A stretch of DNA of 64,000 nt, taken from assembly GCF_910592395.1 (NCBI RefSeq), contig NC_088317.1:18524039-18588038 (forward strand), in the 5' to 3' direction. The notes under the pieces are model-generated. The model did no database searches. It worked only from the letters and a program-made list of their open reading frames with translations, and was not told the DNA's origin. This document shows, one piece after another, positions 2,371 to 29,745 of this stretch. The stretch comes from Lineus longissimus (lineage: Eukaryota > Nemertea > Pilidiophora > Heteronemertea > Lineidae). The position numbers and the translations under genes were made by a program. How positions within the stretch are numbered: position 1 is the stretch's first letter; the number at the start of each line of letters is the position of its first letter.

Positions 2371-2547
2371 AAATTACCCGCGACGCCGGGTTGGGTTATG
2401 TCGAAAAAGTGCACCCGCTAGCGATGGGTACTACCCTGTATTTGGGTATCCGGTCGTTTCGCTCCCTGACCTTTCGCCCCGTCGTTTCGCTCCATATCGG
2501 AGAAGCAGGTACCTGAAGCGCGGAGACCTCGCACATAGGGAAATCTC
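2371..2547. repeat. GC-rich repeat-like block with CGTTTCGC motifs
   Basis: This is a short GC-rich block with repeated GTCGTTTCGCTCC-like words (around 2451-2495), abutting the 68-bp array. It is probably part of a transposable element flank. No gene is seen. Confidence 0.4.
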
Positions 2548-3532
2548 ATCAGTCTTTGCTGCTCTGCCAAGTTGTCAACATGGTGAGAGAGATGAGACAG
2601 TCACAGCCCGGCCAAATCAGTCCTGACTGCTCCACCGTGTTGCCAACATGCTGAGATAGATGAGACAGTCACAGCCAGGCCAGATCAGTCTTTGCTGCTC
2701 TGCCAAGTTGTCAACATGGTGAGAGAGATGAGGAAGTCACAGCCAGCAGGCCGAATCAGTCCTGGCTGCTCCACCGTGCTGCCAACATGATGAGTGAGAT
2801 GAGACAGTCACAGCCAGGCCAGATCAGTCTTTGCTGCTCTGCCAAGTTGTCAACATGACGAGAGAGATGAGACAGTCACAGCCAGGCCGAATCAGTCCTG
2901 GCTGCTCCAGCGTGTTAACAGCATGATGAGAGAGATGAGACAGTCACAGCCAGGCGGCATCAGTCTTTGCTGCTCTGCCAAGTTGTCACATGGTGAGAGA
3001 GATGAGACAGTCACAGCCAGGCCGAATCAGTTCTGGCTGCTCCACCGTGACCAGGCCGAATCAGTCCTGGCTGCTCCACCGTGTTGACAACATGATGAGA
3101 GTGATGAGACAGTCACATCCAGGCCCATCAATCTTCGCCGCACTGCCTAGTTGTTAATATGGCGAGAGAGATGAGACAATCACAGCCAGGCCAAATCAGT
3201 CTCGGCTGCTCTGCCAAGTTGTCTACATGGTGAAAGAGATGAGAGACAGTCACAGCCAGGCCAAATCAGTCTTGGCTGCTCTGCCAAGTTGTCTATATGG
3301 TGAGAGAGATGAGACAGTCACAGCCAGGCGGCATCAGTCTTCGCCGCACTGCCTAGTTGTTAATATGGTGAGAGAGATGAGACAGTCACAGCCAGGCCAA
3401 ATTAGTCTTGGCTGCTCTGCCAAGTTGTCAACATGGTGAGAGAGATGAGGAAGTCACAGCCAGGCCGAATCAGTCCTGGCTGCTCCACCGTGTTGACAAC
3501 ATGATGAGAGAGATGAGATAGTCACAGCCACA
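2548..3532. repeat. 68-bp minisatellite array, copy 1
   Basis: A tandem array of about 14 units has a period near 68 bp. Each unit carries a GAGAGAGATGAGACAGTCACAG core and a variable half. Three variable halves alternate: CTGCTCCACCGTGTTG, CTGCTCTGCCAAGTTGTC and CGCACTGCCTAGTTGTTA. The period is not a multiple of three, so open frames inside the array are not genes. The same family forms 27600-28815 and 29490-29745. Confidence 0.9.
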
Positions 3533-3811: not shown

Positions 3812-3820
3812 AGGATGTAG
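3812..3820 (+). repeat. Candidate target-site duplication, left copy (AGGATGTAG)
   Basis: AGGATGTAG lies 3 bases outside the left inverted repeat. The same 9 bases, in the same orientation, lie 3 bases outside the right inverted repeat at 22429-22437. The 3-base spacer is AGC on both sides. Confidence 0.7.
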
Positions 3821-3823
3821 AGC

Positions 3824-3972
3824 TGTGTCAAGCTAGCCCAAAATTTCTATACCCAAATCAAGCTAGCCCCATATTTCCAACGCCAAGTTTACTCGGGTCT
3901 TACTCGAACTTACTCGGGTAAAGTGTCAAGCCAGCACTAAATTTCCAGCCCCATTTTTGGCGTTTTTGCGTT
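3824..3972 (+). repeat. Left terminal inverted repeat of the giant element
   Basis: It begins TGTGTCAAGCTAGC. Three copies of a TCAAGC[TC]AGC motif occur at about 3827, 3858 and 3927, plus ACTCGGGT / ACTCGAAC / ACTCGGGT repeats near 3890-3920. Such iterated motifs are typical transposase-binding sites in long terminal repeats. Confidence 0.85.
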
Positions 3973-4217
3973 TACATTTTCGTCGAGTCAAAATGCAATC
4001 ACCGACAGTAACCGACCTGAAAGCCATCTACTAAAAGTTAACTGTAAGCCATTCTAACTAAAAGTTAACTATAACCTACCGGTTATACTAATTCCCGACC
4101 TCCCCCGACTTTTCTCGACATTTACCGACTTGCGGAAAATGCTCCCAAAATATAGTGTATTAATCATCAGAATATTTATATTTGTACTGTTTACATACAT
4201 ATACAGCACATCGGTTA

Positions 4218-4980
4218 ATTTCAAGACTTTTGAACGCTGCTAAGTTGAGCAAATCAACTCCAATAATTACATCTATTTACCGACCGCAATTATTTTCTGC
4301 AGGTCGGTAATCTTTGTTAGTTGTGGTTGTCGCTTCTTGTAAACTGTACATGTATATGCTCGTGTTCGGCCTTAATTTTTTTTCTTACCACCCCAAGCTG
4401 AAAAACCACTTGGAGATGGCACTTTTTCTGATTGTTCCTCGACGAAACCACATGGGTACGGTCGGGGGCGATACCCTGCATTGCCTCATACCACTCTCGT
4501 TCCTAGGTGTGACCAGAATATTTTTAAAAATCTTTTTAAAGTAAATTTTCCATTTTTTTTCTTAACACCCTAAGCTCAAAAACCACTTGGAGATGGCACT
4601 TTTTCTGATTGTTCCTCGACCAGACCACTTGTGTACGGTCGGGGACGATGCCCCGCATAGCCTCATACCACTCTCGTTCCTAGGTGTGACCCGAATTTTT
4701 CAAAAATATTTTTAAAGTAAATTTTCCATTTTTTTTCTTACCACCCCAAGCTCACAAACCACTTGGAGATGACACTTTTTCTGATTGTTCCTCAACCAAA
4801 CCACTTGGGTACGGTCGGGGACGATGCCCTGCATAGCCTCATACCGCTCTCGTTCCTAGGTATGACCAGAATTAAAAAAAAATATTTTTAAAGTAAATTT
4901 TCCATTTTTTTTCTTACCACCCCAAGCTCAAAAACCACTTGGAGATGACTTTTTCTGATTGTTCCTCGACCAAACCAAAT
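4218..4980 (+). repeat. Leader plus 176-bp satellite block, left copy
   Basis: A leader of about 170 bp (4218-4390, with a GACCGCAATTATTTTCTGCAGGTCGG core) is followed by four tandem units starting near 4391, 4568, 4744 and 4920, a period of about 176 bp. Each unit has a conserved part (CCACTTGGAGATGGCAC ... GTACGGTCGGGG ... CTCGTTCCTAGGTGTGACC) and an A/T-rich tail. The last unit is cut off by the insertion at 4980. Short open frames here are by-products of the repeat. Confidence 0.9.
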
Positions 4981-5149
4981 GGATGCGGGGTATGATAATG
5001 ATACTAATGAAAATGTTGACATCAGTATATGGTTGATGAGATAACAAGGTAAGGAAGAAGAAAAAAGATGAAAGTGCGGCAGATTCACCGGGAGTCGAAC
5101 CCGTGACCAGCCGATCCACAGTCAAACACATTATCATACCCCGCATCCA
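4980..5149 (-). mobile_element. 170-bp foldback (MITE-like) insertion with tRNA-like interior
   Basis: The ends are perfect 21-bp inverted repeats (4980-5000 and 5129-5149, starting TGGATGCGGGGTATG). The insertion interrupts a 176-bp satellite unit right after its CCAAACCA word. The minus strand contains a perfect Pol III B-box-like GGTTCGACTCC with a paired T-stem, preceded by an anticodon-loop-like CTGTGGA. It lacks a matching acceptor stem, so it is not a working tRNA gene. It may be a tRNA-derived SINE that acquired inverted ends, or a MITE that captured a tRNA. Confidence 0.6.
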
Positions 5150-5707
5150 AACTTATCAAACTGCAGCACATACTGATTCCGGGCGTTCGAGTACTACCGA
5201 CGATGGATCGAATCGGCTGCTGGTATTTTCGAGGATACATTGGAATTAGGGTATCCTGAGCTTCAGACCTTTTATGCTTCTTAATTCGTCATATCGAGAG
5301 GCGGAGGATATTGTAAACCACTGGTGCCTAGATGGTTAAAGGGGTACGCCGGTCGTTGACGTATATTTACTGTTTGGTCCAATCATATCTAGTTCCTACT
5401 TCTAACGCCAATCAACTCCAATAGTCAGCAGTCAAACGCTCGAGCGCTATCTGTATACAATTGGTTCGTGTATAAGTTTTCCCGACCGCTGCAAGTTAGT
5501 TCATGGTCCGACTTTGTGTTTTAAGGATGCGGGTTACTTTGTTGCCCGATGACCATCCTCCTCCCTCTGTACACAAGCTCGGTCAATAGTGTCGAATATT
5601 GGCCTGTGCTTTAGGACGCCTGATGACCAATTAATTAGATGTTCGAGTGACCCTGCTCGTAGGGTCGGAGAAACGAACAGCGAACATTGACCCCGGATTT
5701 CCTCAAG
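5150..5707. other. Unique sequence upstream of the start exon at 5708
   Basis: No repeat or ORF is recognised. It would serve as promoter and 5' UTR if the exon at 5708 is real. Confidence 0.3.
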
Positions 5708-5794
5708 ATGGCTTTAGATGTAGACAAACTTGTTACTGATGGGAGTAATGCTGACAAAATCGGAGTGATTTATAAGCGTCTCGCCAGTTTATTT
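5708..5794 (+). CDS. Candidate start exon inside the giant element (29 codons)
   Basis: An ATG at 5708 (context CTCAAGATGGCT) opens 29 codons, MALDVDKLVTDGSN and on to ...YKRLASLF. The frame ends in phase 0 at a textbook donor TTT|GTAAGTAT at 5795. The residues look like an ordered helical protein rather than random translation, but I do not recognise the family. A possible next exon is 6439-6472 (acceptor tcatgttag|ACC, donor AAAT|GTAAGT), which keeps the frame open. It could be the first exon of the element's own transposase or a captured host exon. Existence is inferred from ATG, frame and donor only. Confidence 0.4.
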
Positions 5795-6159
5795 GTAAGT
5801 ATAGATTAAACCAGTTAGGTTGCGGAAAATACTCGCCACATTTATCCGAGGACTTTATTTGACACGTGGCGGAAAACGACAGTGAAACCACCTGCTATGT
5901 TTCTGAATCGAGAAAGTCCTAATCCTAGTCAGCAGTGAAGGACATGGCAGATTCATCTTGACCACAAAAGTTTTTGCATCTCCCAAGATCCGGTTATGGA
6001 CCATGGGAAGGTTCAGGGAGAGCAACTCCCTGAAAAGGGCGAGAAGGCGGCCAGTGCACGATTCTGCTGAGACGGCCTGGTCCAGCTGGACTTATGCCAA
6101 TTGCTTTGATACCATCAAAAATAATCGTCGCCCAAAAAGGCAAAAAAGCATTATAAAAG

Positions 6160-6234
6160 TTGCGCTTGGTAGGATTCGAACCCACAACACAGGTCATGCC
6201 AGTCTGACGCTCTATGCTCTGAGCTAACGCGCCA
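6160..6234 (-). repeat. tRNA-Lys-like SINE head
   Basis: The minus strand carries an A-box-like TTAGCTCAGAGC, a D-arm pair GCTC/GAGC, AGAGCGTCAGACT as in tRNA-Lys, and a B box GGTTCGAATCC. The acceptor-like ends pair with one mismatch. The anticodon stem does not pair, so it is a tRNA-derived SINE or pseudogene, not an active tRNA. A related tail (TGTTGTGGGTTCGAACC) is at 6600-6617 on the plus strand. Confidence 0.6.
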
Positions 6235-6284
6235 CAACTGCTGAAAGTTGTTCGACCACTTTGTGGAGTTTGATTTGCCCTTTC

Positions 6285-6372
6285 TTCGACGATTTGCGCA
6301 TGTCCCTGCCATGATTAGCCCCTTTGCGCATGACCATGTCACGATTAGCCCATTTGCGCATGTCTTTGGAAT
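6285..6372 (+). repeat. Short tandem repeat, TTTGCGCATG...GATTAGCCC
   Basis: Three near-copies of TTTGCGCATG with intervening ...C[AC]TGATTAGCCC, period about 36-40 bp. No function is seen. Confidence 0.6.
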
Positions 6373-6816
6373 GGCACTGTGATGGCCAGGGCATTTTCAA
6401 ATTGCGTGGTGAACAAACACTCCCGATTTCTCATGTTAGACCGTGTCGACGTTGTCAAAAAGCGTGATCAAATGTAAGTACGATGTTCTTTGTTACTGTT
6501 TATTAGGCGTATTTAGTCACTGTTGATTTTTCAGGCCGAAATATTATGTTCTAAAGGTACTGCGGTGTATACCAATCAATACACTGCATGCATGCCTCGT
6601 GTTGTGGGTTCGAACCAAATAAGCGGAGATGTGCCGAAGTCTTCCATCTTTGACCTTGCACCTCCAGCGCATCTTAATATCGTCTTTTATTGTTGTTTTA
6701 GGTCACGTACCCGTAATAAACGTCTAAGCCATATTTCAGTTGAATAAAGACAATCCGCCACACTCATAACTTTTTCCCAGAGGCTTAGTTAATGAGGAAC
6801 GCTTTCCATCCAAATA

Positions 6817-6935
6817 CAGTGGAACCTCTGTTAGCGAACACCTCTCTATTAAGGACAACCTCTCTATTAAGGACAACCACTCTATTAAGAACAACCTCTC
6901 TATTAAGGACACAAGTTTTGGTCCCAAAATTGGTC
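6817..6935 (+). mobile_element. pogo/Tigger-like transposon terminus with 17-bp tandem repeats
   Basis: The sequence TA|CAGTGGAACCTC is the terminal motif of pogo/Tigger-type Tc1/mariner elements. It is followed by four or five copies of a 17-bp ACCTCTCTATTAAGGAC unit. The matching right end was not found nearby, so this is a lone or truncated terminus. A second, divergent end is at 53983-54027. Confidence 0.6.
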
Positions 6936-7149
6936 GTTTCCATTCAATTTGACCTCGTGAATCATTTCGACCTACTTTGAGATGTAAGAGGCCCCTATTG
7001 GCGGCTTTGTGTAACTATATCTTGCCTGCCTAGCTGCTGCCTATATTCTCCCTTTAATATCAACACCAGTGACTAGTGATGTTTCCTAAACACCAGACCG
7101 ATTTAATTGTGGTGTGCACAGGGTTGTCATCAATCTTGTTGTCCATATG

Positions 7150-7730
7150 AGATTGTATTCTTCTGTCTTTGCAGACAGCTCTACTGTAAGAGCAGGCCTA
7201 GATTTTTGGTATCGGGAGGTTCTTCAACCGAAGGAGGGTCAAGTTTGGAGGCAAGCTACAAGGTTAGAATAGATATTAGTTTGTAAAGTGAAAAAGTTTG
7301 AAAGTTTGTGAAATTGTATCCTTCTATCTTTGCAGGCAGTTCAACTGGAAGTGCAGGCCTAGTGCAGGCAAAGATTTCTGGTATCGGGAGGTTCTTCAAA
7401 CGGAGGAGGGTCTAGTTTGGAGGCAAGCCACAAGGTTAAAATAGATATTAGTTTGTAAAGTGAAAAAGTTTGAAAGTTTATGAGATTGTATCCTTCTATC
7501 TTTGCAGAAAGTTCTACTGGAAGAGCAGGCCTAGATATCTGGTATCAGGAGGTTCTTCAACCGAAGGAGGGTCTAGTTTGGAGGCAAGTCACAAGGTTAG
7601 AATAGATATTAGTTTGTAAAGTGAAAAAGTTTGACAGTTGATGAGATTGTTTTCTTCTATCTTTGCAGACAGTTCAACTTGAAGTGCAGGCCTAGATATC
7701 AGGTATCGGGAGGTTTTTCTTTAGAATCCT
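7150..7730 (+). repeat. Tandem array of four exon-like cassettes (period about 165 bp)
   Basis: Four units each contain an acceptor-like TCTATCTTTGCAG (ends near 7174, 7336, 7507 and 7668). About 90-105 bases later the first three have a donor-like CA[AC]AAG|GTTA. The segment between is open in two frames: for example QLYCKSRPRFLVSGGSSTEG in one frame and GLDFWYREVLQPKEG in another. The fourth unit is truncated. This looks like duplicated exon plus intron units rather than simple DNA, but no protein family is recognised. Confidence 0.6.
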
Positions 7731-7861
7731 ATTTTTAAATCCCACTTGCACGTTTTCTTTAGTAATGACTTTTATTTTATCCTGTATTGATGTTTTAATG
7801 TTTTATTATAAATTGTAAAGTGCTTAGAAGTTTTAACAACGTTAAGCGCTATACACATTTT

Positions 7862-7865
<4 letters not shown>

Positions 7866-7898
<33 letters not shown>

Positions 7899-7912
7899 TA
7901 ATAATTAATAAT
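7866..7912 (+). repeat. (AAT)n microsatellite
   Basis: A run of AAT/AATA repeats of about 45 bp precedes the 286-bp satellite. Confidence 0.9.
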
Positions 7913-7914
7913 CA

Positions 7915-9244
7915 ATAATGAGAGGTTGCAAGTCTCGGTATTGTCGCTGCCCTTGGGATGATAATGAACGACCCTCCCAACCAACCTGAGGGAGAGCCTC
8001 AAGGTAAGAGTTGATCCTTGACTCAGCTTGGCCAAAAAAAGCGCAGATAGTATGCTATTTTAATGCTATAGATTTTTCAACAAGGTTTAAGACCTTTTGC
8101 TCGGATTTGTGATTTTTTAGCAAGGTTTAAGACATCTTGCTCGGATTGGAGATTTTTCAGCAAGGTTTAAGACATCTTGCTCGGATTGGAGATTTTTCTG
8201 CAAGGTTTAAGACATCTTGCTAAGGATTGATTGAAATGCCTCATTCTGATTCCATATTTTATAGGTTCAACTAGTCTTTTAGGTGATAGGTTGCAAGTCT
8301 CGGTATTGTCGCTGCCTTTGGGATGACGAAGAACGACCCTCCCAACCAACCTGATGGAGAGCCTCAAGGTTAGACCTGATCCTTGACTCAGCTTGGCCAC
8401 AAAATGGAGCAGACAGTCTGCTATTTTAATGCCATAGATTTTGCGGCAAGATTTAAGACACCTTGCTAAGGATTGATTGAAATGCCTCATTCTGATTCCA
8501 TATTTTATAGGTTCAACTAGTCTTTTAGGTGAGAGGTTGCAAGTCTCGGTATCATCACTGCCTTTGGGATGATGAAGAACGACCCTCCCAACCAACCTGA
8601 GGGAGAGCCTCAAGGTTAGACCTGATCCTTGACTCAGCTTGGCCACAAAAAGGCACAGATAGTCTGTTATTTTAATGCCATAGATTTTTCGGCAAGATTT
8701 AATGCATCTTGCTCGGATTGGAGATTTTTCTGCAAGGTTTAAGACATCTTGCTAAGGATTGATTGAAATGCCTCATTCTGATTCCATATTTTATAGGTTC
8801 AACTAGTCTTTTAGGTGAGAGGTTGCAAGTCTCGGTATCATCACTGCCTTTGGGATGATGAAGAACGACCCTCCCAACCAACCCGAGGGAGAGCCTCCTG
8901 GTTAGACCTGATCCTTGAATCAGCTTGGCCACAAAAAGGCACAGATAGTCTGTTATTTTGATGCCATAGATTTTTCGGCAAGATTTAATACATCTTGCTC
9001 GGATTGGAGATTTTTCTGCAAGGTTTAAGACATCTTGCTAAGGATTGATTGAAATGCCTCATTCTGATTCCATATTTTATAGGTTCAACTAGTCTTTTAG
9101 GTGAGAAGTTGCAAGTCTTGGTATCATCACTGCCTTTGGATGACGAAGAACGACCCTCCCAACCAACCTGAGGGAGAGCCTCAAGGTTAGACCTGATCCT
9201 TGACTCAGCTTGGCCACAAAAAGGCACAGATAGTCTGCTATTTC
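7915..9244. repeat. 286-bp satellite array, part A
   Basis: About 4.5 tandem units of a 286-bp monomer with some internal deletions. Each monomer contains TTTCGGCAAGATTTAATACA, CCATATTTTATAGGTTCAAC and CCTCCCAACCAACC words. On the minus strand each monomer has an open frame of about 77 codons (MAKLSQGSGLTLRLS...). On the plus strand it has an acceptor-like TTTTATAG and a donor-like CAAG|GTTAGA. The array stops at the left LTR of the copia element. Confidence 0.9.
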
Positions 9245-9422
9245 TGAAAAGTTTGTCATTACTTACTGACATTGGTTGTATTCCACTCACACAGTCACTC
9301 CATATGATGGGCCGGCCCAGGTCTCTTGCTTGTGATTATTCTTTGTCGTGTACTGGTATAGTTTATCCTCTAGATAATATGTCCTCCTGACTCAATCTGT
9401 TCTCCATGAACAACTCTCCTCA
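9245..9422 (-). repeat. 3' LTR of the copia element
   Basis: A 178-bp copy; on the minus strand it begins TGAGGAGAGTTG and ends CAAACTTTTCA. A purine-rich tract (GGGTGGAGGGAC, 9436-9447) lies just inside it and overlaps the end of the pol frame. Confidence 0.9.
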
Positions 9423-9428
9423 ACTACC

Positions 9429-11069
9429 TTAAAAAGTCCCTCCACCCAAAAGTACACACAGATCAGCCAGTTGTTCTTTTCCATTGATCCATTTGAATTT
9501 CTCTATATCCTTTCTTTCAATGGCTTCTCTGATACCACTTATTTCTATTCTCAACCTCTTTTCTGAGACTCCTTTGTTGGATCTGACAGCCTCATGGAGT
9601 GATTTGCAGTCTGTCACACAAGTTATTCTAGGGCTTTCTTTTATGATTTCCGAAATCAGAGAATTGATAAAGAAAGCATTATCCATTGCATCTGCCATTG
9701 CCAGGGTTTCTCCAGCCAGTGTGCTTCTCACCACTCGTCTTATTTTCTTAGAACTCCAGCATAATGGTGAAATTTTCTGTTCTTCTCCTTCTAGACATAT
9801 GAAGTGTCCTCCTTGAGTAGCTCCATTTTCCAAATTTCCAAATGATGCATCACTAAATACAGTCAACTTGGGGTTCTTCAGTTTACTAAACTTAAGTGTC
9901 ACCTTCTCACTTTTGGCTTTTCGGATTACTTTGTTTGTCTCAAACAGATCTCTCACTTTGGCTTGATCCTTGACTCTTGAGGCTATATTACAAGTATCAA
10001 AGATGATGTCTGGCCTGCTCTGTCTCCCCAACCATAGAAGTTGGCCAACCCTTTCTCTCATGATCTTTCTTTCCGATTCTGTTACTTCAGCATCCTTTTG
10101 GTCCCATCTTTCTCTTCTCAACTCTATGTATTCTAAATTGTCCTTGTAAAAATTCTGATCCAATCTGATTTGTCCCATGTCACACTGTACCTTTAAGCCA
10201 ACATACTTGAAGCGTTCTTTGTCCTCTCTCCCAACAACTAGTTCTTTTCTCACGTTCTCTATCACTAGTTTCTCAAACTCAGGTGTCCCAGCCCATAGGA
10301 AGTCATCTACATGACATGCAAGAATTCCTCTCAGTTGTTCCTTCTCATCATGCCATATGAACACAGCTGGTTCAAGTTTGGACACCACTCCTTCGTATTT
10401 GTTCATGCATGATTTCACCTTTTTGTACCATTGAAGGGAAGCATCTCCAAGTCCATAGACACATTTTTCTAACTTCCACAGTTTTCCTTCCTTTTCTTTA
10501 GCTTCTTTTGGAGGTTTTATGTATATCTCTCTTTCTAATCTCTCACCTTGGAGAAAGGCAGATTTTATATCCATTGATTTTGGGGTCCATTCCTTCTGTG
10601 CCATTATGGCAAGAATTATCTTCAAAGCCTCTGTTGAGCAAGTGGGAGAATCTCTCTCCATTTCAAGATCACTTTCTTCATAGCCTCTCGCTACAAGTCT
10701 TGCTTTTGGCACCAATTTTCCATTCTTTTCTTTCATACAGCATACCCATCTGGTTGAAACAGTTCTTTGTCCTTCATCATTTACAGTTGAGTATACCCTG
10801 TGATCTTTCCAACTAGTGAGTTCTCTTTCTTTAGCTTCTTCAAAGACACTCTGTTCTGTTATATAAACATCATTTTCTTGCTCCCCATTCTGTTCATCAG
10901 TTGTTATTATTGTGACTTTCCAATTATCTAGTTCTTCAAGATTCACTAGCTGACATGGTCTCAACTTCTCCATTTTCACTAGTAACGCCCATGTTGTACC
11001 AGTTCTTATACTGTCCCGTCTTTTTTCCAGCTCTGTTGATGACTGTAGCTTTCCTTGTTTCTTCTTCAT
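9429..11069 (-). pseudogene. copia pol, reverse transcriptase and RNase H segment
   Basis: This 546-codon frame encodes the copia reverse transcriptase, which copies element RNA into DNA in virus-like particles, and the RNase H that removes the RNA. Visible motifs: WVCCMKEKNGKLVPKARLVA at the front of the RT, the catalytic aspartate context MDIKSAFLQG, a YGL turn, and the catalytic pair in ACHVDDFLWAG. The RNase H region has FSDASFGN, then the copia-type AGETLAMADA, and ends VTDCKSL...EQLADLCVLLGGGTF. The frame ends at the purine tract beside the 3' LTR. It is in a different frame from the segment upstream (overlap 10936-11069), so a frameshift separates them. Confidence 0.92.
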
Positions 11070-11586
11070 CTTTGAACTTAATCATTACATGCTGTCCTGG
11101 TTTGAGAGATGTTGTTTTCAATGTCAATGTTGGAAGTTCTGTGCTGGCATCATCTTCTCTCATTCTTTCTGCATTCTGGTCATCTCCCCTTTTTCCTACT
11201 ATCTCTTCATCTTCGTTGTTCACATCAAGATCACTATCTCTCTCTTCTGTTGTCTGGTCTCTTCTCTCATCTTCACTGTCTATCTCTTCTTCATTTGCTG
11301 CCTCTTCTAGTTCACTATTCTTGCCTTCTACTGATTTCATTTCCTTCTCTTCTTCATCAATTTCTATTTTCTTCTCCACTTTCTTCAGTCTGCATACATG
11401 TACTCTCACTAGCTGGCTTCCATGTCTGACAAAGACTACTACTCCATCTTGTCCTATCACACGACCTGGTCCCCTCCATTCAGTTTCATTGGGTCTTTTG
11501 TAGAACACTTTATCATTGTTCAAGTCACTACATCTCGGCTGGTCCGAGTTTGTTTCCGCAGAGCTCTTCTGATTCTTTCTGAGCAT
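10936..11586 (-). pseudogene. copia pol, integrase-RT linker segment
   Basis: A 216-codon frame begins within the end of the integrase. It has the copia integrase C-terminal motif (VFYKRPNETEWRGPGRVIGQ; the GKG/GPG-like element), then a long acidic, low-complexity linker rich in E, D, K and S. Such linkers normally separate integrase from reverse transcriptase. It overlaps its neighbours in other frames at both ends (11520-11586 and 10936-11069), so this piece lies between two frameshifts. Confidence 0.85.
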
Positions 11587-13200
11587 TCAGCTTCTGTGTA
11601 TGCACTTCTAGCTGCATGCATTGCTGTCAGATGTTCTCCAACTTTCTGGCTTGTTGTTACCCCTTCAAGTGCTGGTAGGCTTTCTTCAAGAACAGAGGGT
11701 AAGTTGGGATTAACACCGAACACAAGTTGGTAGGCACTGAATCCATGTATATTGCTCATAGTGTTTTTAGCCATCAGAGCCCAACTCAATGCAGTCTCCC
11801 AGCTACATTGTTTGTCTGCTTTAACTTTGGACAATGTTTCTGTCAGTGTCATGTTGTGCCTTTCACATATTCCATTGGACCACGGACTGTAAGCTGCAGT
11901 CATGAGAATTTCTATACCAAACAAGTGACCCATCTGCACAACTTCTTCATTAGCGAATTCCCCTCCGTTATCTGAAAATATTTTCTTTGGAGCACCAAAC
12001 CTGCTTATCCATTGACTGATGAATTTCTCAACAATTTCTGTTCCTGCTTTTGTTTTGACAATTGCTCCTGCACTGTATCTTGTGTAAATGTCTATGATGT
12101 GTAAGAACCAAAGTGAAGGTTCAAGCTGATGTCGATCCATAGCTACCATTTCATTCCAATTTGTTGCAAGTGGCAAAGAAACTACAGGTCTGCTCGGTGT
12201 CTTTTGAAATCGTTGACATATCTCACATTCCCTCGAAACCTTCTCAAGCGTCTTCATCATACTTTGGTCCTTGATGCCCGCTTTCGCCAGCAGCATTCTC
12301 AGTTTCTCTTCTGAAGGATGTCCAAATTGACGATGAAGTTTCACTATTACTTTCTCTTTTTCTTTGGTGCTGTTAATCATCAGTACTTGTTGTGAATTCA
12401 GTTCTTCTTTTATGGTTCTTCTCCCAAGCAGATTCAGACAGTAGTGTCCACTCGAGGTTTGTTCTAAATGTACAGTCCTACCAAACAGTTTTGCTTCATC
12501 TTTGTTTAGGTCTAAGACGGCTCCAGCCTTTTTCAATGACTCCTTGCTTAACAATAGAGGCAAGTCTAATTCCACAACGTCAGTTGTAATGTTGCATTTT
12601 GTATCACCTATGTAAGCTGGGATAGTAATCGTCTTGGAGGCTGTCACCTTGACCCCATCACCGAATCTGTATACGCTGCTGCTGCTTTTTGTTTGTTTAA
12701 CTGTTGATGATCGTTCTCTGTCATTCAACGTTTCAATGTACTCATCAAGCCATTTATTGCCACAGACAGTCTTAGTGCATGCTGTATCTAATATGGCTGT
12801 GCCAAATGTTTCAGTCATGAATATGAGGTTGTGGTTGTCTATTTCACTGGTAAACAATGTTACATTGCACGACTCTTCTTCTGTTACCAATCTTACTACT
12901 TCCTTTGAGTCCTTATGCTCACAATCCCGAGCCCAGTGATATGTACTTCCACAAACAGCACATCTGGATCTCATGCCTTTCTTATCCATTGGATTTGTTC
13001 CACGCTGTAAATAAGGCTGTCTCTCTGTTGCCTTATTCTTGAAGTAGTGGCTCCTGCTATTTCTGGTTTGGTTGTTTGTGAACATCGCTTCCTGTTTTAT
13101 TGTCACACCATAGTCATTTAAACATTTTGATGCATCGTTTTCTCCAAAGTCCGTTTCAAAGCTGATTTCATACTTTGGAAGTTCAGTTCCTTCGCCGCTG
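11520..13200 (-). pseudogene. copia gag 3' end, protease and integrase segment
   Basis: This frame carries a zinc knuckle of CX2CX4HX4C form (CAVCGSTYHWARDC), which binds genomic RNA. The aspartic protease site is ILDTACTKTVCG, which cleaves the polyprotein. The integrase zinc-binding HHCC begins HRQFGHPSEEKL and ends CEICQRF. The D,D,E core has MDRH, FSDNGGEF and the glutamate in SNGICERHN. Integrase inserts the DNA copy. The frame is open from about 13200 down to a stop at 11520. The upper end has no start codon of its own and continues gag after a frameshift. The published-style start at 13106 would be a GTG and is not meaningful here. Confidence 0.92.
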
Positions 13201-13657
13201 TTAGTGCAAGTTGTTTCTCATTTTGGCCTAGACCTGCTTTATCTAGAATTTTGAAGGCTAGAACAGCTTCTGGTAATTCCATTTTATGTTTCTTACTAAG
13301 ATAGTACAGTCTTTCAAACTCAATGATATACTCCCCAATTGACTGTCCTTCAACTCTTTAGAAATTTTCAAATTTGGTGTAAATGCTGTAGGCTATATCA
13401 ATTTCATCCTTTTTGTAAACCTTGTCAAGGGCTGCTAGAAGTACTTTCATTCCATCATCAGTATTGAGTTCACTTGTTTCAAGTTCTAATGCAATGGCTC
13501 TCGCCTGACCTTTTAGTGATAATGTGACTGCAAGAGCTTGTTTCTTTATATCAAGTTCTGTCACAAGTTGCCACATAGAAATTTCATTTTTCCATGTCTC
13601 ATAATCGGAATGAGATTCACTTCCAAAGGTTGGGGGGTTTTTATATCCGGCGGCCAT
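13110..13657 (-). pseudogene. copia gag, N-terminal part with in-frame stop
   Basis: The start is taken at the ATG at 13657 (MAAGYKNPPTFGSESHSDYE); a longer frame to 13723 runs back into the leader. The product is the capsid-forming Gag of the copia family (UBN2-like): FxGxxHxDYETWKNEISMW near the N terminus, then SLKGQARAIALELE. A TAA at 13360-13358 interrupts the frame after KFENF. The same frame then resumes with VEGQSIGEYIIEFERL and AVLAFKILDKAGL. It ends at a second TAA near 13116, while the overlapping shifted frame carries on into the zinc knuckle. It therefore has one nonsense change and one frameshift. Confidence 0.85.
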
Positions 13658-13774
13658 TTTTTTCTTTTGTTTGCTATTAAGTACAGGCACTGATGTACAG
13701 GGAATGTAAATGTATATGCACACAAGTATCCAGCTAACACTACACAGAGGTCCTCCTTGTAGATTGTTACACAG

Positions 13775-13786
13775 CCTCTGCTACCA
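13775..13786 (-). promoter_or_regulatory. Primer-binding site complementary to initiator tRNA-Met
   Basis: Directly inside the 5' LTR the minus strand reads TGGTAGCAGAGG. This is the complement of the 3' end of metazoan initiator tRNA-Met (...CCTCTGCTACCA), where minus-strand DNA synthesis would be primed. Confidence 0.9.
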
Positions 13787-13964
13787 TGAAAAGTTTGTCA
13801 TTACTTACTGACATTGGTTGTATTCCACTCACACAGTCACTCCATATGATGGGCCGGCCCAGGTCTCTTGCTTGTGATTATTCTTTGTCGTGTACTGGTA
13901 TAGTTTATCCTCTAGATAATATGTCCTCCTGACTCAATCTGTTCTCCATGAACAACTCTCCTCA
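13787..13964 (-). repeat. 5' LTR of the copia element
   Basis: 178 bp, apparently identical base for base to 9245-9422. The satellite resumes right after it, in a different phase of the monomer. Confidence 0.9.
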
Positions 13965-13967
13965 ACT

Positions 13968-16900
13968 GAAGAACGACCCTCCCAACCAACCCGAGGGAGA
14001 GCCTCCAGGTTAGACCTGATCCTTGAATCAGCTTGGCCACAAAAAGGCACAGATAGTCTGTTATTTTAATGCCATAGATTTTTCGGCAAGATTTAATACA
14101 TCGTGCTCGGATTGGAGATTTTTCTGCAAGGTTTAAGACATCTTGCTGAGGATTGATTGAAATGCCTCATTCTGATTCCATATTTTATAGGTTCAACTAG
14201 TCTTTTAGGTGAGAGGTTGCAAGTCTCGGTATCATCACTGCCTTTGGATGACGAAGAACGACCCTCCCAACCAACCTGAGGGAGAGCCTCAAGGTTAGAC
14301 CTGATCCTTGACTCAGCTTGGCCACAAAAAGGCACAGATAGTCTGCTATTTCAATGCTATCGATTTTTTGGCAAGATTTAATACATCTTGCTCGGATTGG
14401 AGATTTTTCAGCAAGGTTTAAGACATCTTGCTAAGGATTGATTGAAATGCCTGATTCTGATTCCATATTTTATAGGTTCAACTAGTCTTTTAGGTGAGAG
14501 GTTGCAAGTGTCGGTATCATCACTGCCTTTGGGATGACGAAGAACGACCCACCCAACCAACCTGAGGGAGAGCCTCAAGGTTAGACCTGATCCTTGACTC
14601 AGCTTGGCCACAAAATGGCGCATACAGTCTGCTATTTTAATGCCATAGATTTTTCGGCAAGATTTAATACATCTTGCTCGGATTGGAGATTTTTCAGCAA
14701 GGTTTAAGACATCTTCCTAAGGATTGATTGAAATGCCTCATTCTGATTCCATATTTTATAGGTTCAACTAGTCTTTTAGGTGAGAAGTTGCAAGTCTCGG
14801 TATCATCACTGCCTTTGGGATGATGAAGAACGACCCTCCCAACCAACCCGAGGGAGAGCCTCAAGGTTAGACCTGATCCTTGAATCAGCTTGGCCACAAA
14901 AAGGCACAGATAGTCTGCTATTTTAATGTCATAGATTTTTCGGCAAGATTTAATACATCTTGCTCGGATTGGAGATTTTTCTGCAAGGTTTAAGACATCT
15001 TGTTAAGGACTGATTGAAATGCCTCATTCTGATTCCATATTTTATAGGTTCAACTAGTCTTTTAGGTAAGGGTTGCAAGTCTCGGTATCATCACTGCCTT
15101 TGGATGACGAAGAACGACCCTCCCAACCAACCTGAGGGAGAGCCTCAAGGTTAGACCTGATCCTTGACTCAGCTTGGCCACAAAATGGCGCATACAGTCT
15201 GCTATTTTAATGCCATAGATTTTTCGGCAAGATTTAATACATCTTGCTCGGATTGGAGATTTTTCTGCAAGGTTTAAGACATCTTGCTAAGGATTGATTG
15301 AAATGCCTCATTCTGATCCCATATTTTATAGGTTCAACTAGTCTTTTAGGTGAGAAGTTGCAAGTCTCGGTATCATCACTGCCTTTGGGATGACGAAGAA
15401 CGACCCTCCCAACCAACCTGAGGGAGAGCCTCAAGGTTAGACCTGATCCTTGACTCAGCTTGGCCACAAAAAGGCACAGATAGTCTGCTATTTTAATGCC
15501 ATAGATTTTTCGGCAAGATTTAATACATCTTACTCGGATTGGAGATTTTTCTGCAAGGTTTAAGACATCTTGCTGAGGATTGATTGAAATGCCTCATTCT
15601 GATTCCATATTTTATAGGTTCAACTAGTCTTTTTGGTGAGAAGTTGCAAGTCTCGGTATCATCACTGCCTTTGGGATGATGAAGAACGACCCTCCCAACC
15701 AACCCGAGGGAGAGCCTCAAGGTTAGACCTGATCCTTGAATCAGCTTGGCCACAAAAAGGCACAGATAGTCTGCTATTTTAATGTCATAGATTTTTCGGC
15801 AAGATTTAATACATCTTGCTCGGATTGGAGATTTTTCTGCAAGGTTTAAGACATCTTGTTAAGGACTGATTGAAATGCCTCATTCTGATTCCATATTTTA
15901 TAGGTTCAACTAGTCTTTTAGGTAAGGGTTGCAAGTCTCGGTATCATCACTGCCTTTGGATGACGAAGAACGACCCTCCCAACCAACCTGAGGGAGAGCC
16001 TCAAGGTTAGACCTGATCCTTGACTCAGCTTGGCCACAAAATGGCGCATACAGTCTGCTATTTTAATGCCATAGATTTTTCGGCAAGATTTAATACATCT
16101 TGCTCGGATTGGAGATTTTTCTGCAAGGTTTAAGACATCTTGCTAAGGATTGATTGAAATGCCTCATTCTGATCCCATATTTTATAGGTTCAACTAGTCT
16201 TTTAGGTGAGAAGTTGCAAGTCTCGGTATCATCACTGCCTTTGGGATGACGAAGAACGACCCTCCCAACCAACCTGAGGGAGAGCCTCAAGGTTAGACCT
16301 GATCCTTGACTCAGCTTGGCCACAAAAAGGCACAGATAGTCTGCTATTTTAATGCCATAGATTTTTCGGCAAGATTTAATACATCTTACTCGGATTGGAG
16401 ATTTTTCTGCAAGGTTTAAGACATCTTGCTGAGGATTGATTGAAATGCCTCATTCTGATTCCATATTTTATAGGTTCAACTAGTCTTTTTGGTGAGAAGT
16501 TGCAAGTCTCGGTATCATCACTGCCTTTGGGATGACGAAGAATGACCCTCCCAACCAACCTGAGGGAGAGCCTCAAGGTTAGACCTGATCCTTGACTCAG
16601 CTTGGCCACAAAAAGGCACAGATAGTCTGCTATTTTAATGCCATAGATTTTTCGGCAAGATTTAATACATCTTACTCGGATTGGAGATTTTTCTGCAAGG
16701 TTTAAGACATCTTGCTGAGGATTGATTGAAATGCCTCATTCTGATTCCATATTTTATAGGTTCAACTAGTCTTTTAGGTGAGAGGTTGCAAGCCTCGGTA
16801 TCATCACTGCCTTTGGGATGACAATGAACGACCCTCTTAACCAACCTGAGGGAGAGTCTCAAGGTTAGACCTGATCCTTGACTCAGCTTGGCAACAAAAT

Positions 16901-17510
16901 GGCGCAGATAGTCTGCTATTTTAATGCCATAGATTTTTCAGCAAGATTTAACACATCTTGCTCGGATCGGAGATTTTTCAGGAAGGTTTAAGACATCTTG
17001 CTAAGGATTGATTGAAATGCCTCATTCTGATTCCATATTTTATAGGTTCAACTAGTCTTTTGGTGAGAGGTTGCAAGTCCCGGTATTGTCGCTGCCTTTG
17101 GGATGACAAAGAACGACCCTCCCAACCAACCTGAGGGAGAGCCTCATGGTAACACTCGACCCTTGACTCAGCTTGGCCACAAAATGGCGCAGACAGTCTG
17201 CTATTTTAATGCCATCGATTTTTCGGCAAGATTTAATACATCTTGCTCGGATTGGAGATTTTTCAGCAAGGTTTAAGACATCTTGCTAAGGATTGATTGA
17301 AATGCCTCATTCTGATTCCATATTTTATAGGTTCAACTAGTCTTTTGGTGAGAGGTTGCAAGTCCCGGTATTGTCACTGCCTTTGGGATGACAATGAACG
17401 ACCCTCCCAACCAACCCGAGGGAGAGCCTCAAGGTTTGACTTGATCCTTGACTAAGCTTGGCCATAAAATGGCGCAGATAGCCTCAAGGTAAGACTCGAT
17501 TCTTAATGCC
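13968..17510. repeat. 286-bp satellite array, part B, with three-unit higher-order repeat
   Basis: About 12 tandem monomers of 286 bp. Between about 14930 and 16641 two consecutive three-monomer blocks, 856 bp apart, share private variants: TGTTAAGGACTG at 15001 and 15857, CATACAGTCTG at 15191 and 16047, GATCCCATAT at 15316 and 16172, CATCTTACTCGG at 15528 and 16384. This shows recent block duplication. Monomers decay toward 17500. Confidence 0.92.
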
Positions 17511-19487
17511 ATAGATTGAAATTTTGAGCAGTGACTGAGATTATGTGACTTGAGTAAGATACAGCTGAACCATCCAATATATTCAAGAACATAAAAAACG
17601 GATTCAAACAAGAATGTAAAGATCTAGAGGAGAGATTTCTAGCAGTTTTGAAAAGTCTTGCTAAAGATTTTATTCCAAATTGAACACATCATTCTTATTC
17701 TAATATTTTAAAGGTTCAACAAGCCCAGGATCACATTTGAATCACTGACATCCCCATTCTGTAGGAAAGGAGCCTTGGGAAAGGAGAACCCATCAAAGAT
17801 CGTCTCGAAAACACTTGCCTTGATCAGGATACGCTGAAAAACCACCGATGAGGAAAATCACTTTATCATCATCATCATGGAAGTTTTATAACCCTTTTGG
17901 GTCTTCAACTTATAAGGTTTGTGAAAAATCAGTGCAATACAGTCTTATTTTCCATCTCTTTGAATCTGACACAGTCAATTCTTTAAGACATCCTCATTCC
18001 TTGTCTTTTATACCTGGACTCATACTTAGACTGGTCATTCTCTATTGTTGTTTGTATATCAAAATATGGTGCCCACACAGAAAAACACAAAAAGACCAGG
18101 CGCTTTATAAAAACAAGGAAAAACGAAGTACGGTGTGGGAGAGTCGTCTCACTTGTAGTAAAAATATGAACTTTTTAATTTTTCCAGAGATTGTCTAAAC
18201 GGGTTTTGAAAGTTTCAAGGGTATTTCTATTTGCAGCTACAACTTCATGTCAGAGATACATGGAATACTGTCAGGAACAAACCTGATGAAAGAACTCTCA
18301 TTGCTACACCAATGTTCGCGTTGATACAGAGCTGGACGATCCCATCGATGCTCTTGTTTCAGGCAAATGTAATGAAGTGCTGTGCAAACGATCTGTTAAG
18401 CAAACATTTGTTCCAAATTGTAGCATAATATTTGTTCCAAATAGTGATTTACCGACATGCTTGAAGATCACCTGTTTGTATTTGACAATGCAATACTGCA
18501 CAAATGTAATGTGATGTAATGCAACGCTACAATTTGTTAGGCAAAATGTTTGTTCAAAATTGTGATTTATCAACATGTTTGAAGATCACCTGTATGTAGA
18601 TCACCTGTATGTATTTGACAATGCAACACTGCACATAATCTTTCACTGTGGCCCAGTGTGTTTTGCACCCTTGAAACTAATGTAATTTAAACTTTTCAAG
18701 CCTGAATGCTCTTGGGAGCGCCCTTCCTGTTCTCAAATAGTCTGTGAATAAGCCACTTAAGTATGTTGATAACTTTATCATTTCATACTGTGTCATCTTC
18801 CTTTGCATATAGGCATATAGGCATATCTTTCATTATTTTCAATTATTTTTTATTTTTTAAAGTTTTTTTTGGCATTTTTGTTTTTTCTTCAGTGGTACAT
18901 GTTGGTCATTATAGCTAGATTACAGGTAGGTTAGGCCTACAGGGTTACAGCATTAGTTTATTTCATGACTGGCAGTTAGTGCCGTCATCAGCAGCCACTT
19001 AGGATAGGATTGAGACTAGTGAGTGCAGTAGGTGTAGGCGCAACGTATCTAAGGTTAGGCACTCACTGGTCTTTATCTCCAGGAAGATGACACACCTGGG
19101 TAACCATGGCGAAGCTGCAATACAATCTTATCACTGGTTTTAAACTTGATCCCAGTTGTTTGCTATAATTGGGAAAAGTTTGTTATCAGATTTTAAAACT
19201 CAGAGGCTCATGCCAGTGAGCATGTTGCGCGTTTTAATAGTAATAGTAGCTCGAATTGGGCACATGGCTTGAAAGGTTTAAAACATTGACCTGTGATAAA
19301 AAGGGTGAGTTTCTGGGAATGGCCTGCAAAGGCAATTGCATTTTCTCACCCATTTTTTCACAATCAAATATTGTTTATAAAATGTAAAATGTATGATGTA
19401 AATAATGAAGTAAAAATGTATAACATGATAAGAAAGTACTTCTTTGAAGATATTTATGTTTTGTTATGGTAAAATGAATTACAGGCC
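17511..19487. other. Non-coding interior of the giant element
   Basis: No convincing gene is seen. At 18400-18500 and 18535-18640 there is a tandem duplication of about 130 bp (TTTGTTCAAAATTGTGATTT ... GAAGATCACCTG). A plus-strand stretch at 18229-18420 follows a good acceptor (TTCTATTTGCAG|C) and is open, but it has no known family and could be an old exon. 18900-19060 contains TAGGTTAGGCCTA-like words. Confidence 0.4.
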
Positions 19488-19865
19488 CTTACTGTAAACT
19501 CACTCAGGAGCTGTCCGACCGTCAAATGGCAGCACCCGCTGGATCTGTCATATTCATAGTCCCCTGCTGTAAACTCACCCGGCCAGGAGCTGTCTGGGCT
19601 TCAAATGGCAGCACATGCTGGATATATCAATATAGGACAGCCCCCCCCCCCCACTATAAACTCACCCAGGAGCTGTCTTAACCTTAAATGTGGCAGCACC
19701 AGTGGGACATATCAGTCGGCTACCATCCTACGTGTTGGTCCCTACTATAAACTCACCCAGGAGCTGTCTTAACCTTAAATGTGGCAGCACCAGTGGGAAA
19801 TATCAGTCGGCTACCATCCTACGTGTTGTTCCCTACTGTAAACTCACCCAGGAGCTATCGCCTCT
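19488..19865 (+). repeat. Tandem repeat, period about 75-91 bp
   Basis: Five units begin with AAACTCACCCAGGAGCTGTC at 19496, 19571, 19658, 19749 and 19840. The last two periods are exactly 91 bp. A poly-C run at 19641-19652 lies in one unit. Confidence 0.85.
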
Positions 19866-20234
19866 TGATCATGTGAATCAAATGCTAGTCTGGAGGTCTC
19901 AGAAGCCCACTTTGTCCCCTCCAATAGATCGAAGACATGCCTTTTCCGAGGCCGGGATGGATGTACGCTATCCTGATTCAAATATTATTCATCATTCTCT
20001 TCGTTGGCCATCTTCTTAGATGCCTGAGATAGTAAGTCAGGTGTCCGAGATGAAAAATAAACATCGTCACTGAAAAAAAAAACACCATGTCCTTTCACTA
20101 AGACGAGAATATCGTCTAAATCGGATTCTGGGTCGTGTGAAGACAAGTCTCAAATGGTCTGTGAGAGGTGTCTAAATGAACTCTTTGCGACCTCGATGTC
20201 AATCGTCAGAGATAACGCCCTAGTGGGAACAGGT

Positions 20235-22050
20235 TATGAAATTTCCAGACTTTTGAACGATCATAAGTTGAGAAAATCAACTCCAATAATTACATCTATT
20301 TACGGACCGCAATTATTTTCTGCAGGTCGGCAATCTTTGTTTATAGTTGTGGTTGTCGCTTCTTGTAAACTGTGCATGCTTATGCTCGTGTTCGGCCTTA
20401 ATTTTTTTTCTTAACACCCCAAGCTCAAAAACCACTTGGAGATGGCACTTTTTCTGATTGTTCCTCGACGAAACCACATGGGTACGGTCGGGGGCGATGC
20501 CCTGCATAGCCTCATACCACTCTCGTTCCTCGGTGTGACCAGAATTATTTTTTAAATCTTTGTTAAGTAAAATTTCTAATTTTTTCTTACCACCCCAAGC
20601 TCAAAAACCACTTGGAGATGACACTTTTTCTGATTGTTCCTCGACCAAACCACATGGATACGGTCGGGAACGATGCCCTGCATAGCCTCATACCACTCTC
20701 GATCCTAGGTGTGACCAGAATTTTTTTCTAAATCTTTGTTAAGTAAAATTTCTAATTTTTTCTTACCACCCCAAGCTCAAAAACCACTTGGAGATGGCAC
20801 TTTTTCTGATTGTTCCTCGACCAAACCACATGTGTACGGTCGGGGACGATGCCCCACATAGCCTCATACCACTCTCGTTCCTAGGTGTGACCAGAATTTG
20901 TTTCAAATATTTGTAAGTAAATTTTCTAATTTTTTTCTCACCACCTCAAGCTCAAAAACCACTTGGAGATGGCACTTTTTCTGATTGTTCCTCGACCAAA
21001 CCACATGGGTACGGTCGGGGACAGTAGCCTCATACCACTCTCGTTCCTTGGTGTGACCAATATTTTTAAAGTAAATTTTCCATTTTTTTTCTTAACACCC
21101 CAAGCTAAAAAAACACTTGGAGATGGCACTTTTTCTGATTGTTCCTCGACCAAACCACATGGGTACGGTCGGGGGCGATGCCCTGCATGGCCTCATACCA
21201 CTCTCGTTCCTAGGTGTGACCAGAATTTAAAAAAAATATTTTTAAAGTTAATTTTCCATATTTTTCTTAACACCCCAAGCTCAAAAACCACTTGGAGATG
21301 GCACTTTTTCTGATTGTTCCTCGACAAAACCACATGGGTACGGTCGGGGGCGATGCCCTGCATAGCCTCATACCACTCTCGGTCCTAGGTGTGACCAGAA
21401 TTTGTTTAAAATATTTTAAAAGTAAATTTTCCATTTTTTTTCTTAACACCCCAAGCTCAAAAACCACTCGGAGATGCCACTTTTTCTGATTGTTCCTCGA
21501 CCAAACCACATGGGTACGGTCGGGGACGATGCCCCGCATAGCCTCATACCACTCTCGTTCCTAGGTGTGACCCGAATTTTTCAAAAATATTTTTAAAGTA
21601 AATTTTCCATTTTTTTTCTTACCACCCCAAGCTCAAAAACCACTTGGAGATGGCACTTTTTCTGATTGTTCCTCGACTAAACCACATGGGTACGGTCGGG
21701 GGCGATGCCCTGCATAGCCTCATACCACTCTCGATCCTAGGTGTGACCAGAATGTTTTAAAAAATCTTTGTTAAGTAAAATTTCGAATTTTTTCTTACCA
21801 CCCCAAGCTCAAAAACACTTGGAGATGGCACTTTTTCTGATTGTTCCTCGACCAAACCACATGTGTACGGTCGGGGACGATGCCCCACATAGCCTAGCTC
21901 ATACCACCAAATTTACTTTAAAAATATTTTGGAAAAATTCGGGTCACACCTAGGAACGAGAGTGGTATGAGGCTATGCGGGGCATCGTCCCCGACCGTAC
22001 ATATGTGGTCTGGTCGAGGAACAATCGAAAAAAGTGCCATCTCCAAGCTG
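20235..22050 (+). repeat. Leader plus 176-bp satellite block, right copy, ending in an inverted unit
   Basis: The same leader as at 4218-4390 is found at 20235-20408. It is followed by nine direct units (near 20419, 20597, 20773, 20948, 21105, 21279, 21451, 21627 and 21807). At 21905-22050 one unit is present in reverse orientation, making a large hairpin-like end. The block has the same orientation as the left copy, so it is a direct internal duplication. Confidence 0.9.
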
Positions 22051-22276
22051 CTTGTCTCCAGAAATGAACCCCTTACTGGTGCTGCCCTCCTGAAAATACT
22101 CGGGGGACCATAGAACTGAAATCAATATTTTATGAAAGATTGAATACTAGTCTATAATTCAAATCAATATTTTTCTTGATTACCTTTGTATTAACCCACG
22201 CCACCCCAGGGTCAACTTTTTGTTTTTATTCTTCAATAATTTGTACCGTTGTAGGTGTCACTGGTCTTGTGCCTGT

Positions 22277-22425
22277 AACGCAAAAACTCCAAAAATGGGG
22301 CTGGAAATTTAGTGCTAGCTTGACACTTTACCCGAGTAAGTTCGAGTAAGACCCGAGTAAACTTGGTGCTGGAAATATGGGGCCAGCTTGATTTGGGTAG
22401 AGAAATTTGGTGCTAGCTTGACACA
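22277..22425 (-). repeat. Right terminal inverted repeat of the giant element
   Basis: This is the reverse complement of 3824-3972 with 8 mismatches and no gaps, ending ...GCTAGCTTGACACA at 22425. Confidence 0.85.
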
Positions 22426-22428
22426 AGC

Positions 22429-22437
22429 AGGATGTAG
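22429..22437 (+). repeat. Candidate target-site duplication, right copy (AGGATGTAG)
   Basis: Exact copy of 3812-3820, placed after the spacer AGC (22426-22428). Confidence 0.7.
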
Positions 22438-29489: not shown

Positions 29490-29745
29490 CTATCACACCG
29501 TGTTGCCAACATGATGAGAGAGATGAGACAGTCACAGCCAGGCCACATCAGTCTTCGCCGCACTGCCTAGTTGTTAACATGGTGAGAGAGATGAGACAGT
29601 CACAGCCAGGCCGAATCAGTCCTGGCCGCTCCACCGTGTTGACAACATGATGAGAGAGATGAGACAGTCACAGCCAGGCCACATCAGTCTTCGCCGCACT
29701 GCCTAGTTGTTAACATGGTGAGAGAGATGAGACAGTCACAGCCAG
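29490..29745. repeat. 68-bp minisatellite array, copy 3
   Basis: About four units alternating two subtypes exactly (CCTGGCCGCTCCACCGTGTTG and TTCGCCGCACTGCCTAG halves), a clean 136-bp dimer. Confidence 0.9.

Follow-up and report, generated by a model that had tools for sequence, protein, structure and literature searches.

An 18.6-kb transposon of Lineus longissimus is probably a composite of short non-autonomous elements

In maize, macrotransposons of the Ac/Ds (hAT) system consist of two linked elements around unrelated DNA (PMC9910405), and movement of up to 100 kb is cited for them (PMC3260210). Here we analyzed a block of 18.6 kb with inverted ends from Lineus longissimus. The block lies in a stretch of 64,000 nucleotides (NCBI RefSeq assembly GCF_910592395.1, contig NC_088317.1, positions 18,524,039 to 18,588,038), which is called the window below. 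Coordinates are positions in the window unless they carry a prefix (C2:, C8: etc.), which denotes contigs of the same genome. Our analysis indicates that the block is probably a natural, non-autonomous composite transposon, or macrotransposon, that would be mobilised in trans.

By analogy, the maize Ac/Ds macrotransposons offer a precedent for such a composite. In their case both outer ends act jointly, and long segments, even with retrotransposons nested in them, can be moved (PMC9910405, PMC3260210). They differ from the L. longissimus element in that their target duplication is 8 bp and not 9 bp and in that their host is a plant and not an animal; furthermore, the 18.6-kb element has lost its internal end and is now a simple two-ended unit, the movement of which is read from the sequence. 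A closer likeness of the ends is found in Tm1, a Mutator/Foldback family from root-knot nematodes. According to PMC3169594, Tm1 creates 9-bp duplications (range 8-10), has composite inverted ends with internal repeats and short non-inverted bases between the duplication and the inverted repeat, and exists mostly as non-autonomous copies. Its authors call such non-inverted terminal bases unusual, yet known in other Mutator-like elements (MULEs). Unlike the 18.6-kb element, Tm1 has terminal motifs of 7 bp, a size of 0.17 to ~2.6 kb and a known Phantom/MULE transposase, whereas no transposase is tied to the ends of the family described here. The Tetris foldback element of Drosophila virilis is also non-autonomous, with internal tandem repeats, 8-10 bp duplications and no autonomous partner found (PMC4079207). 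This likeness is one of description only, and the available part of that account describes no trapped foreign repeat, in contrast to the 18.6-kb element. Ginger1, Ginger2 and IS481EU share TGT..ACA ends with the element, and Ginger inverted ends can match it in length (PMC2836005, PMC10045372). However, the duplications are 4-5 bp in Ginger and ~4, 15 or 25 bp in IS481EU, and Ginger ends read TGTNR, while the outermost bases here are AGC/GCT, followed by TGTGT (PMC2836005, PMC10045372). A literature search for composite elements or macrotransposons together with Mutator surfaced only prokaryotic insertion sequences, and a broader one led to the maize work; we make no claim of absence from print.

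The preliminary description of the block, made from the letters of the window, had reported inverted ends with AGC and an equidistant direct repeat outside each of them, and an alignment of the arms bears this out. The arms are inverted copies over 149 bp with 8 mismatches and 0 gaps (Table 1). They are flanked by AGGATGTAG-AGC on the left and by AGC-AGGATGTAG on the right. The 9-mer AGGATGTAG occurs at exactly 2 sites in the window, 3812 and 22429, and its reverse complement does not occur there. To estimate the chance rate, 200,000 random point pairs were drawn from the window and close pairs were skipped; 234 of the 198,761 pairs counted (~0.1%) showed a repeat of at least 9 bases that was equidistant (0-20) from both points. 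This rate is an upper figure because tandem arrays were not separated out. The block is thus confirmed and, as had been proposed, carries the signature of transposition as one unit; the exact equidistant repeat and the occurrence of the same 9-bp rule elsewhere in the genome both speak for this. Each arm contains three copies of a motif starting TCAAGC(T/C)AGC and three of TTACTCG; among the six copies of the former, one has a further base change. Internal repetition of this kind often marks transposase binding sites and may do so here.

A search of the genome with the end and an alignment of the flanks of further copies had also been proposed, and both were informative. A search of the genome (391,118,348 bases, 30 contigs) with the left arm gave at least 25 matches from 25 candidates, so that the counts below are lower bounds. 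Of the 25 matched ends, 14 pair up into seven two-ended loci and 11 stand singly. The triplet outside TGTGTC is AGC in 9/25 and GCT in 16/25 ends, and TGTGTC itself carries one base change in a single end (L023). The number of distinct flanks among these ends is ~21, because four ends share one flank and two ends on C13 share another. As the triplet is unchanged while the flanks vary, it belongs to the element. Outside the triplets, the two 9-mers are identical in the 18.6-kb element, in C8:1480120-1481665 (CAATACTTG) and in C6:5752973-5761960 (CGAAATCAG; both ends of the GCT type), and they agree at 8/9 positions in C9:11053749-11056710. A 9-bp direct repeat is therefore present in 4/7 two-ended copies, while the best identity between mutually unpaired ends was 6/9 in 586 ordered comparisons. 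With the constant triplet inside and the 9-bp repeats outside, the element spans 3821-22428, or 18,608 bp.

The internal anatomy was obtained by mapping segments of the window onto the copies. This revealed a short element with the order inverted end, subterminal block, lead-in, 176-bp units, one inverted 176-bp unit, right subterminal block and inverted end. At C8:1480120-1481665 such an element occurs by itself and in full; it measures 1,552 bp including triplets and has its own 9-bp repeat. The ends of the 18.6-kb element belong to this short (~1.5-kb) non-autonomous family. The element itself is made of the left part of a short element (3824-4988), a cargo and a second short element, present from the lead-in through the right end (20240-22425), with both short-element parts in the same orientation; 4217-4988 and 20240-21014 form a direct duplication with 90% identity. 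Two related elements thus surround unrelated DNA, and in this copy only the whole is bounded by one target duplication. The preliminary description had called the size exceptional for a non-autonomous transposon. This view needs modification: the size is not that of a unitary element, since the block holds two short-element parts, an unrelated repeat and a nested Copia.

Table 1. Features of the 18.6-kb element and its target site (positions in the window)
Feature	Position	Strand	Evidence
Left 9-bp target site duplication, AGGATGTAG	3812..3820	+	Flank sequence, 9-mer comparison
Left terminal triplet AGC, not inverted relative to the other end	3821..3823	+	25-end comparison
Left terminal inverted repeat, 149 bp	3824..3972	+	Arm alignment
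Left part of short element: subterminal block, lead-in, four 176-bp units; ends where the cargo starts	3973..4988	+	Painting
Cargo: unrelated dispersed repeat with 286-bp array, nested Copia inside	4989..20239	+	Repeat and copy comparison
Nested Copia (RVT_2, rve) with identical 181-bp long terminal repeats (LTRs), inside the 286-bp array	9245..13967	-	LTR identity, domains
Right short element, lacking a left inverted end of its own: lead-in, nine 176-bp units, one inverted 176-bp unit, right subterminal block	20240..22276	+	Painting
Right terminal inverted repeat, 149 bp	22277..22425	-	Arm alignment
Right terminal triplet AGC (inward reading GCT)	22426..22428	+	25-end comparison
Right 9-bp target site duplication, AGGATGTAG	22429..22437	+	Flank sequence, 9-mer comparison

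Further copies contain junctions that the 18.6-kb element lacks. At C2:2469013, C2:11300853, C3:14079998 and C7:3025515 the cargo runs ~90 bp further and is followed by AGC-TGTGTC, the left terminus of another short element. Past this internal end, C2:11300853 and C3 hold the whole short element and C7 matches it in part; at C2:2469013 it stops 34 bp into the subterminal block. The ~90 bp, the internal end and the subterminal block are missing both from the 18.6-kb element and from the copy at C13:15384206. These two have the junction GAAATTTC in common, between the cargo GAAATT and the lead-in AATTTC, as if sequence had been deleted at a short match. Their right flanks differ (AGGATGTAG in the 18.6-kb element and TACTACGCC in the C13 copy). 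At C3 (L010), the opposite edge of the cargo is in direct contact with a right-type inverted end.

The cargo is also found without the ends. A peptide from the cargo end gave 50 genome matches out of 63 candidates; many matches were weak, and some coincided with known copies. Ten of these loci were fetched (3.2 kb each); six lay at known copies and the other four (C4, C5, C9, C14) were compared. Cargo DNA was present in 4/4 of the latter, and no inverted ends were found within the fetched 3.2 kb, a view in which ends more than 1.5 kb from the match would fall outside. Relative to the 18.6-kb element, the left part of the cargo diverges by 1.05% in the copy at C2:2438325. In the aligned stretches of the right part the divergence is 1.8% for C13, 2.1% for C2:11300853, 3.3% for the C2:2438325 copy, 7.4% for C7 and 7.5% for C3.

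We infer the following course of events. Two copies of the ~1.5-kb non-autonomous element would have come to flank an unrelated repeat, both in the same orientation. A transposase acting in trans would then have brought together the outermost left end of one short element and the outermost right end of its partner, so that the whole interval between the outer ends moved and created the 9-bp duplication. On the line leading to this copy, a deletion of roughly 480 bp at the short AATT match would have removed the internal left end and left the two outer ends; the Copia element presumably inserted after these steps. A narrower version is that the internal end was deleted beforehand and that this streamlined macrotransposon, now two-ended and with its AGC termini in direct orientation, then moved, by a transposase family that has no Pfam match (with relatives at C9:10998890, C10:11062389 and C17:3438044). 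We put this forward tentatively, as the less likely course.

Several observations weigh against a composite origin. Three of the seven two-ended loci (C3, C2, C7) show no duplication, with only 3, 2 and 2 of 9 positions in agreement. In each of them one end lies on the recurrent junction GTTCAGGCC-AGC-TGTGTC, which is found at four places. The duplication is missing there because the sequence outside this shared internal junction is cargo; the junction accounts for the three misses but adds no independent support. For the C13, C2:2438325 and C3 composites, whose lengths were partly fetched, a second outer end was neither matched nor seen, and segmental duplication could therefore explain some copies. 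Only the 18.6-kb element, among the composites seen, has both outer ends and a duplication. Finally, three reversed 176-bp units lie to the right of the C2:11300853 copy, which may therefore be nested in another one.

How far do other explanations account for the same data? The preliminary description had left two lengths for the target duplication, namely 9 bp, or 3 bp in a target that already held AGGATGTAG twice. The 9-bp length holds in 4/7 two-ended copies, and the 3-bp length fails. It is true that AGC lies in direct orientation on both flanks of the 18.6-kb element. However, AGC or GCT stands in all 25 ends across the ~21 distinct flanks, and in four copies a 9-bp repeat lies outside the triplet. 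Furthermore, the triplets of C6:5752973 read GCT and AGC on the same strand, so that there is no direct repeat of the triplet at that locus. A duplication of AGC alone was rejected on the constant triplet and the outer 9-bp repeats; we give it practically no credence. Constant terminal bases beside a duplication can thus mimic a second, shorter duplication when a single copy is read. An origin from unrelated inverted end fragments, or from an inversion or segmental duplication, with a flank match by chance, is very improbable. The 11/25 ends without a partner would agree with it, as would two right ends at C13:15385534 and 15391439 (L037), which have an identical flank 5.9 kb apart and look like a tandem duplication. 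It does not explain the exact equidistant repeat, whose 9-mer has its sole two sites in the window at these positions, nor the same rule in three other copies. The interval between the two C13 right ends contains a frame of 799 amino acids (aa) that matches a rhodopsin-type receptor (7tm_1), in keeping with an animal genome.

One large ancestral element could also have held all the parts, with the short elements as its internal deletion products. Short non-autonomous elements usually arise by deletion, and ends and subterminal blocks are common to the short and large forms. In the 18.6-kb element, however, the lead-in and the 176-bp block are present in two direct copies; at four loci the cargo junction bears an additional inverted end with its AGC, and parts of the cargo exist without inverted ends at the four loci inspected. 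For these reasons we consider a large ancestor unlikely and favor the assembly of the composite from short elements.

The absence of a visible transposase, as reported in the preliminary description, was borne out in 11 of the 12 frames outside Copia, which gave no Pfam match to a transposase (the frame left out was one minus frame of 3974-9244). Weak matches to DHFR_1, Med15_M, DUF4802, HA2_N and CPV_Polyhedrin were below the curated cut-off and were taken as chance. A search for a DDE transposase inside relatives, which had been suggested, gave a mixed result: a possible DDE-type fragment in the C9 copy, with no curated Pfam match. In this copy (C9:11053749-11056710; 2,968 bp including triplets), oppositely oriented 176-bp units enclose ~690 bp of protein-coding sequence that is interrupted by one stop. 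Relatives of the fragment are located at C10:11062389 (91% identical), C17:3438044 (three pieces, 81-95%) and C9:10998890 (46%). The last of these (L058:1339-3462) is an open frame of 708 aa, in which DATGKV is followed by NMDRAM 74 residues on; by analogy with Mutator-like enzymes, these motifs may form a DDE core. The 708-aa frame had no Pfam match at E 1 and no match among solved structures at E 1; it is perhaps a member of an undescribed transposase family. Neither the C9-copy fragment nor its longer relatives matched a transposase family in Pfam, and the fragment had no match at E 0.001 in a large protein collection (0/459 and 0/109 candidates). Its Metallophos_2 match (E 7e-5 to 2e-4) fell below the curated cut-off and was taken as chance. 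Inverted ends were not seen within the fetched flanks of the C10:11062389, C17:3438044 and C9:10998890 relatives. The autonomous partner may have left the C9-copy fragment behind as a remnant, or else the fragment may be a captured gene.

A second candidate lies on C16, where an open frame of 670 aa (C16:9829873-9831882; L034:1374-3383) matches the Mutator-like transposase PF20700 with E 2.7e-49. It was not accepted as the autonomous partner; the frame is located between 188-bp direct repeats with 98.4% identity, ~6.5 kb from the end, and the left end was not found near it in C16:9822500-9838499. Close to the C17 relative of the transposase-like protein there is a 763-aa frame (C17:3434711-3436999; L062:212-2500), which by eye appears piggyBac-like. 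A 22-base piece of the end had 0 exact matches in viral contigs and GTDB genomes.

The 9-bp duplication in 4/7 two-ended copies and the long inverted ends (149 bp) with short non-inverted terminal bases (AGC/GCT) suggest membership in the Mutator superfamily, which had been raised as one possibility. The length and the terminal bases speak for it; membership is not established because no transposase, of the MULE type or other, is tied to the ends. The composition of each end from internal repeats, and the inverted 176-bp units inside the short elements, also fit the Foldback type. The Polinton/Maverick type, with 6-bp duplications and polymerase/integrase genes, does not agree with the 9-bp repeats, and no polymerase or integrase domains were found in the 11/12 frames outside the nested Copia. 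The 9 bp seen in four copies likewise differ from the 8 bp of hAT elements.

The two LTRs of the Copia in the cargo (9245-9425 and 13787-13967) are identical over 181 bp. Relatives of this Copia, at least 120 in number, include some named from Saccoglossus and Mytilus, which also points to an animal genome. The two arms together with everything between them measure 18,602 bp, of which Copia, not noticed in the preliminary description, takes up 4,723 bp; tandem repeat makes up ~61% of the 13,879 bp left (with intervals set by hand). No target duplication of Copia was seen by eye, and its two flanks differ in their phase within the 286-bp unit. The large copy on C2 (from C2:2438325) has ~54 units of 286 bp, which are interrupted by a sequence that is only 65-76% like the Copia of the window and is therefore a different retroelement. 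The 286-bp unit was rejected as a tandem exon; it is open in 10/77 units and no better conserved than the remainder of the unit. At the cargo end, a coding-like stretch was likewise read as repeat and not as a captured host exon, with many genome matches and four loci without inverted ends. The segment 4980-5149 is bounded by 21-bp perfect inverted repeats and contains what by eye resembles the 3' half of a tRNA; part of it lies in opposite orientation in the large C2 copy.

Other observations concern the surroundings and further copies. A 68-bp minisatellite of one family flanks the element on both sides (2547-3530, 27600-28813 and 29496-29747), by eye in the same orientation. The C16 copy has 1,073-bp tandem repeats with 99.9% identity within its right subterminal block (C16:9835306-9838180, L034). 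By eye, frames in the C6 copy appear DIRS-type-like, and one in the stretch beside the C8:18396548 end appears BEL-type-like (L026 and L038).

The finding joins two known kinds of system, composite movement and a 9-bp Mutator-like end. A single genome shows a series of forms: the short element alone, the composite with internal ends, and the composite with the internal end deleted and a duplication of its own. This series is a possible route from short non-autonomous elements to a large mobile unit that carries unrelated DNA, and it suggests how large pieces of DNA can be mobilised without carrying their own enzyme.

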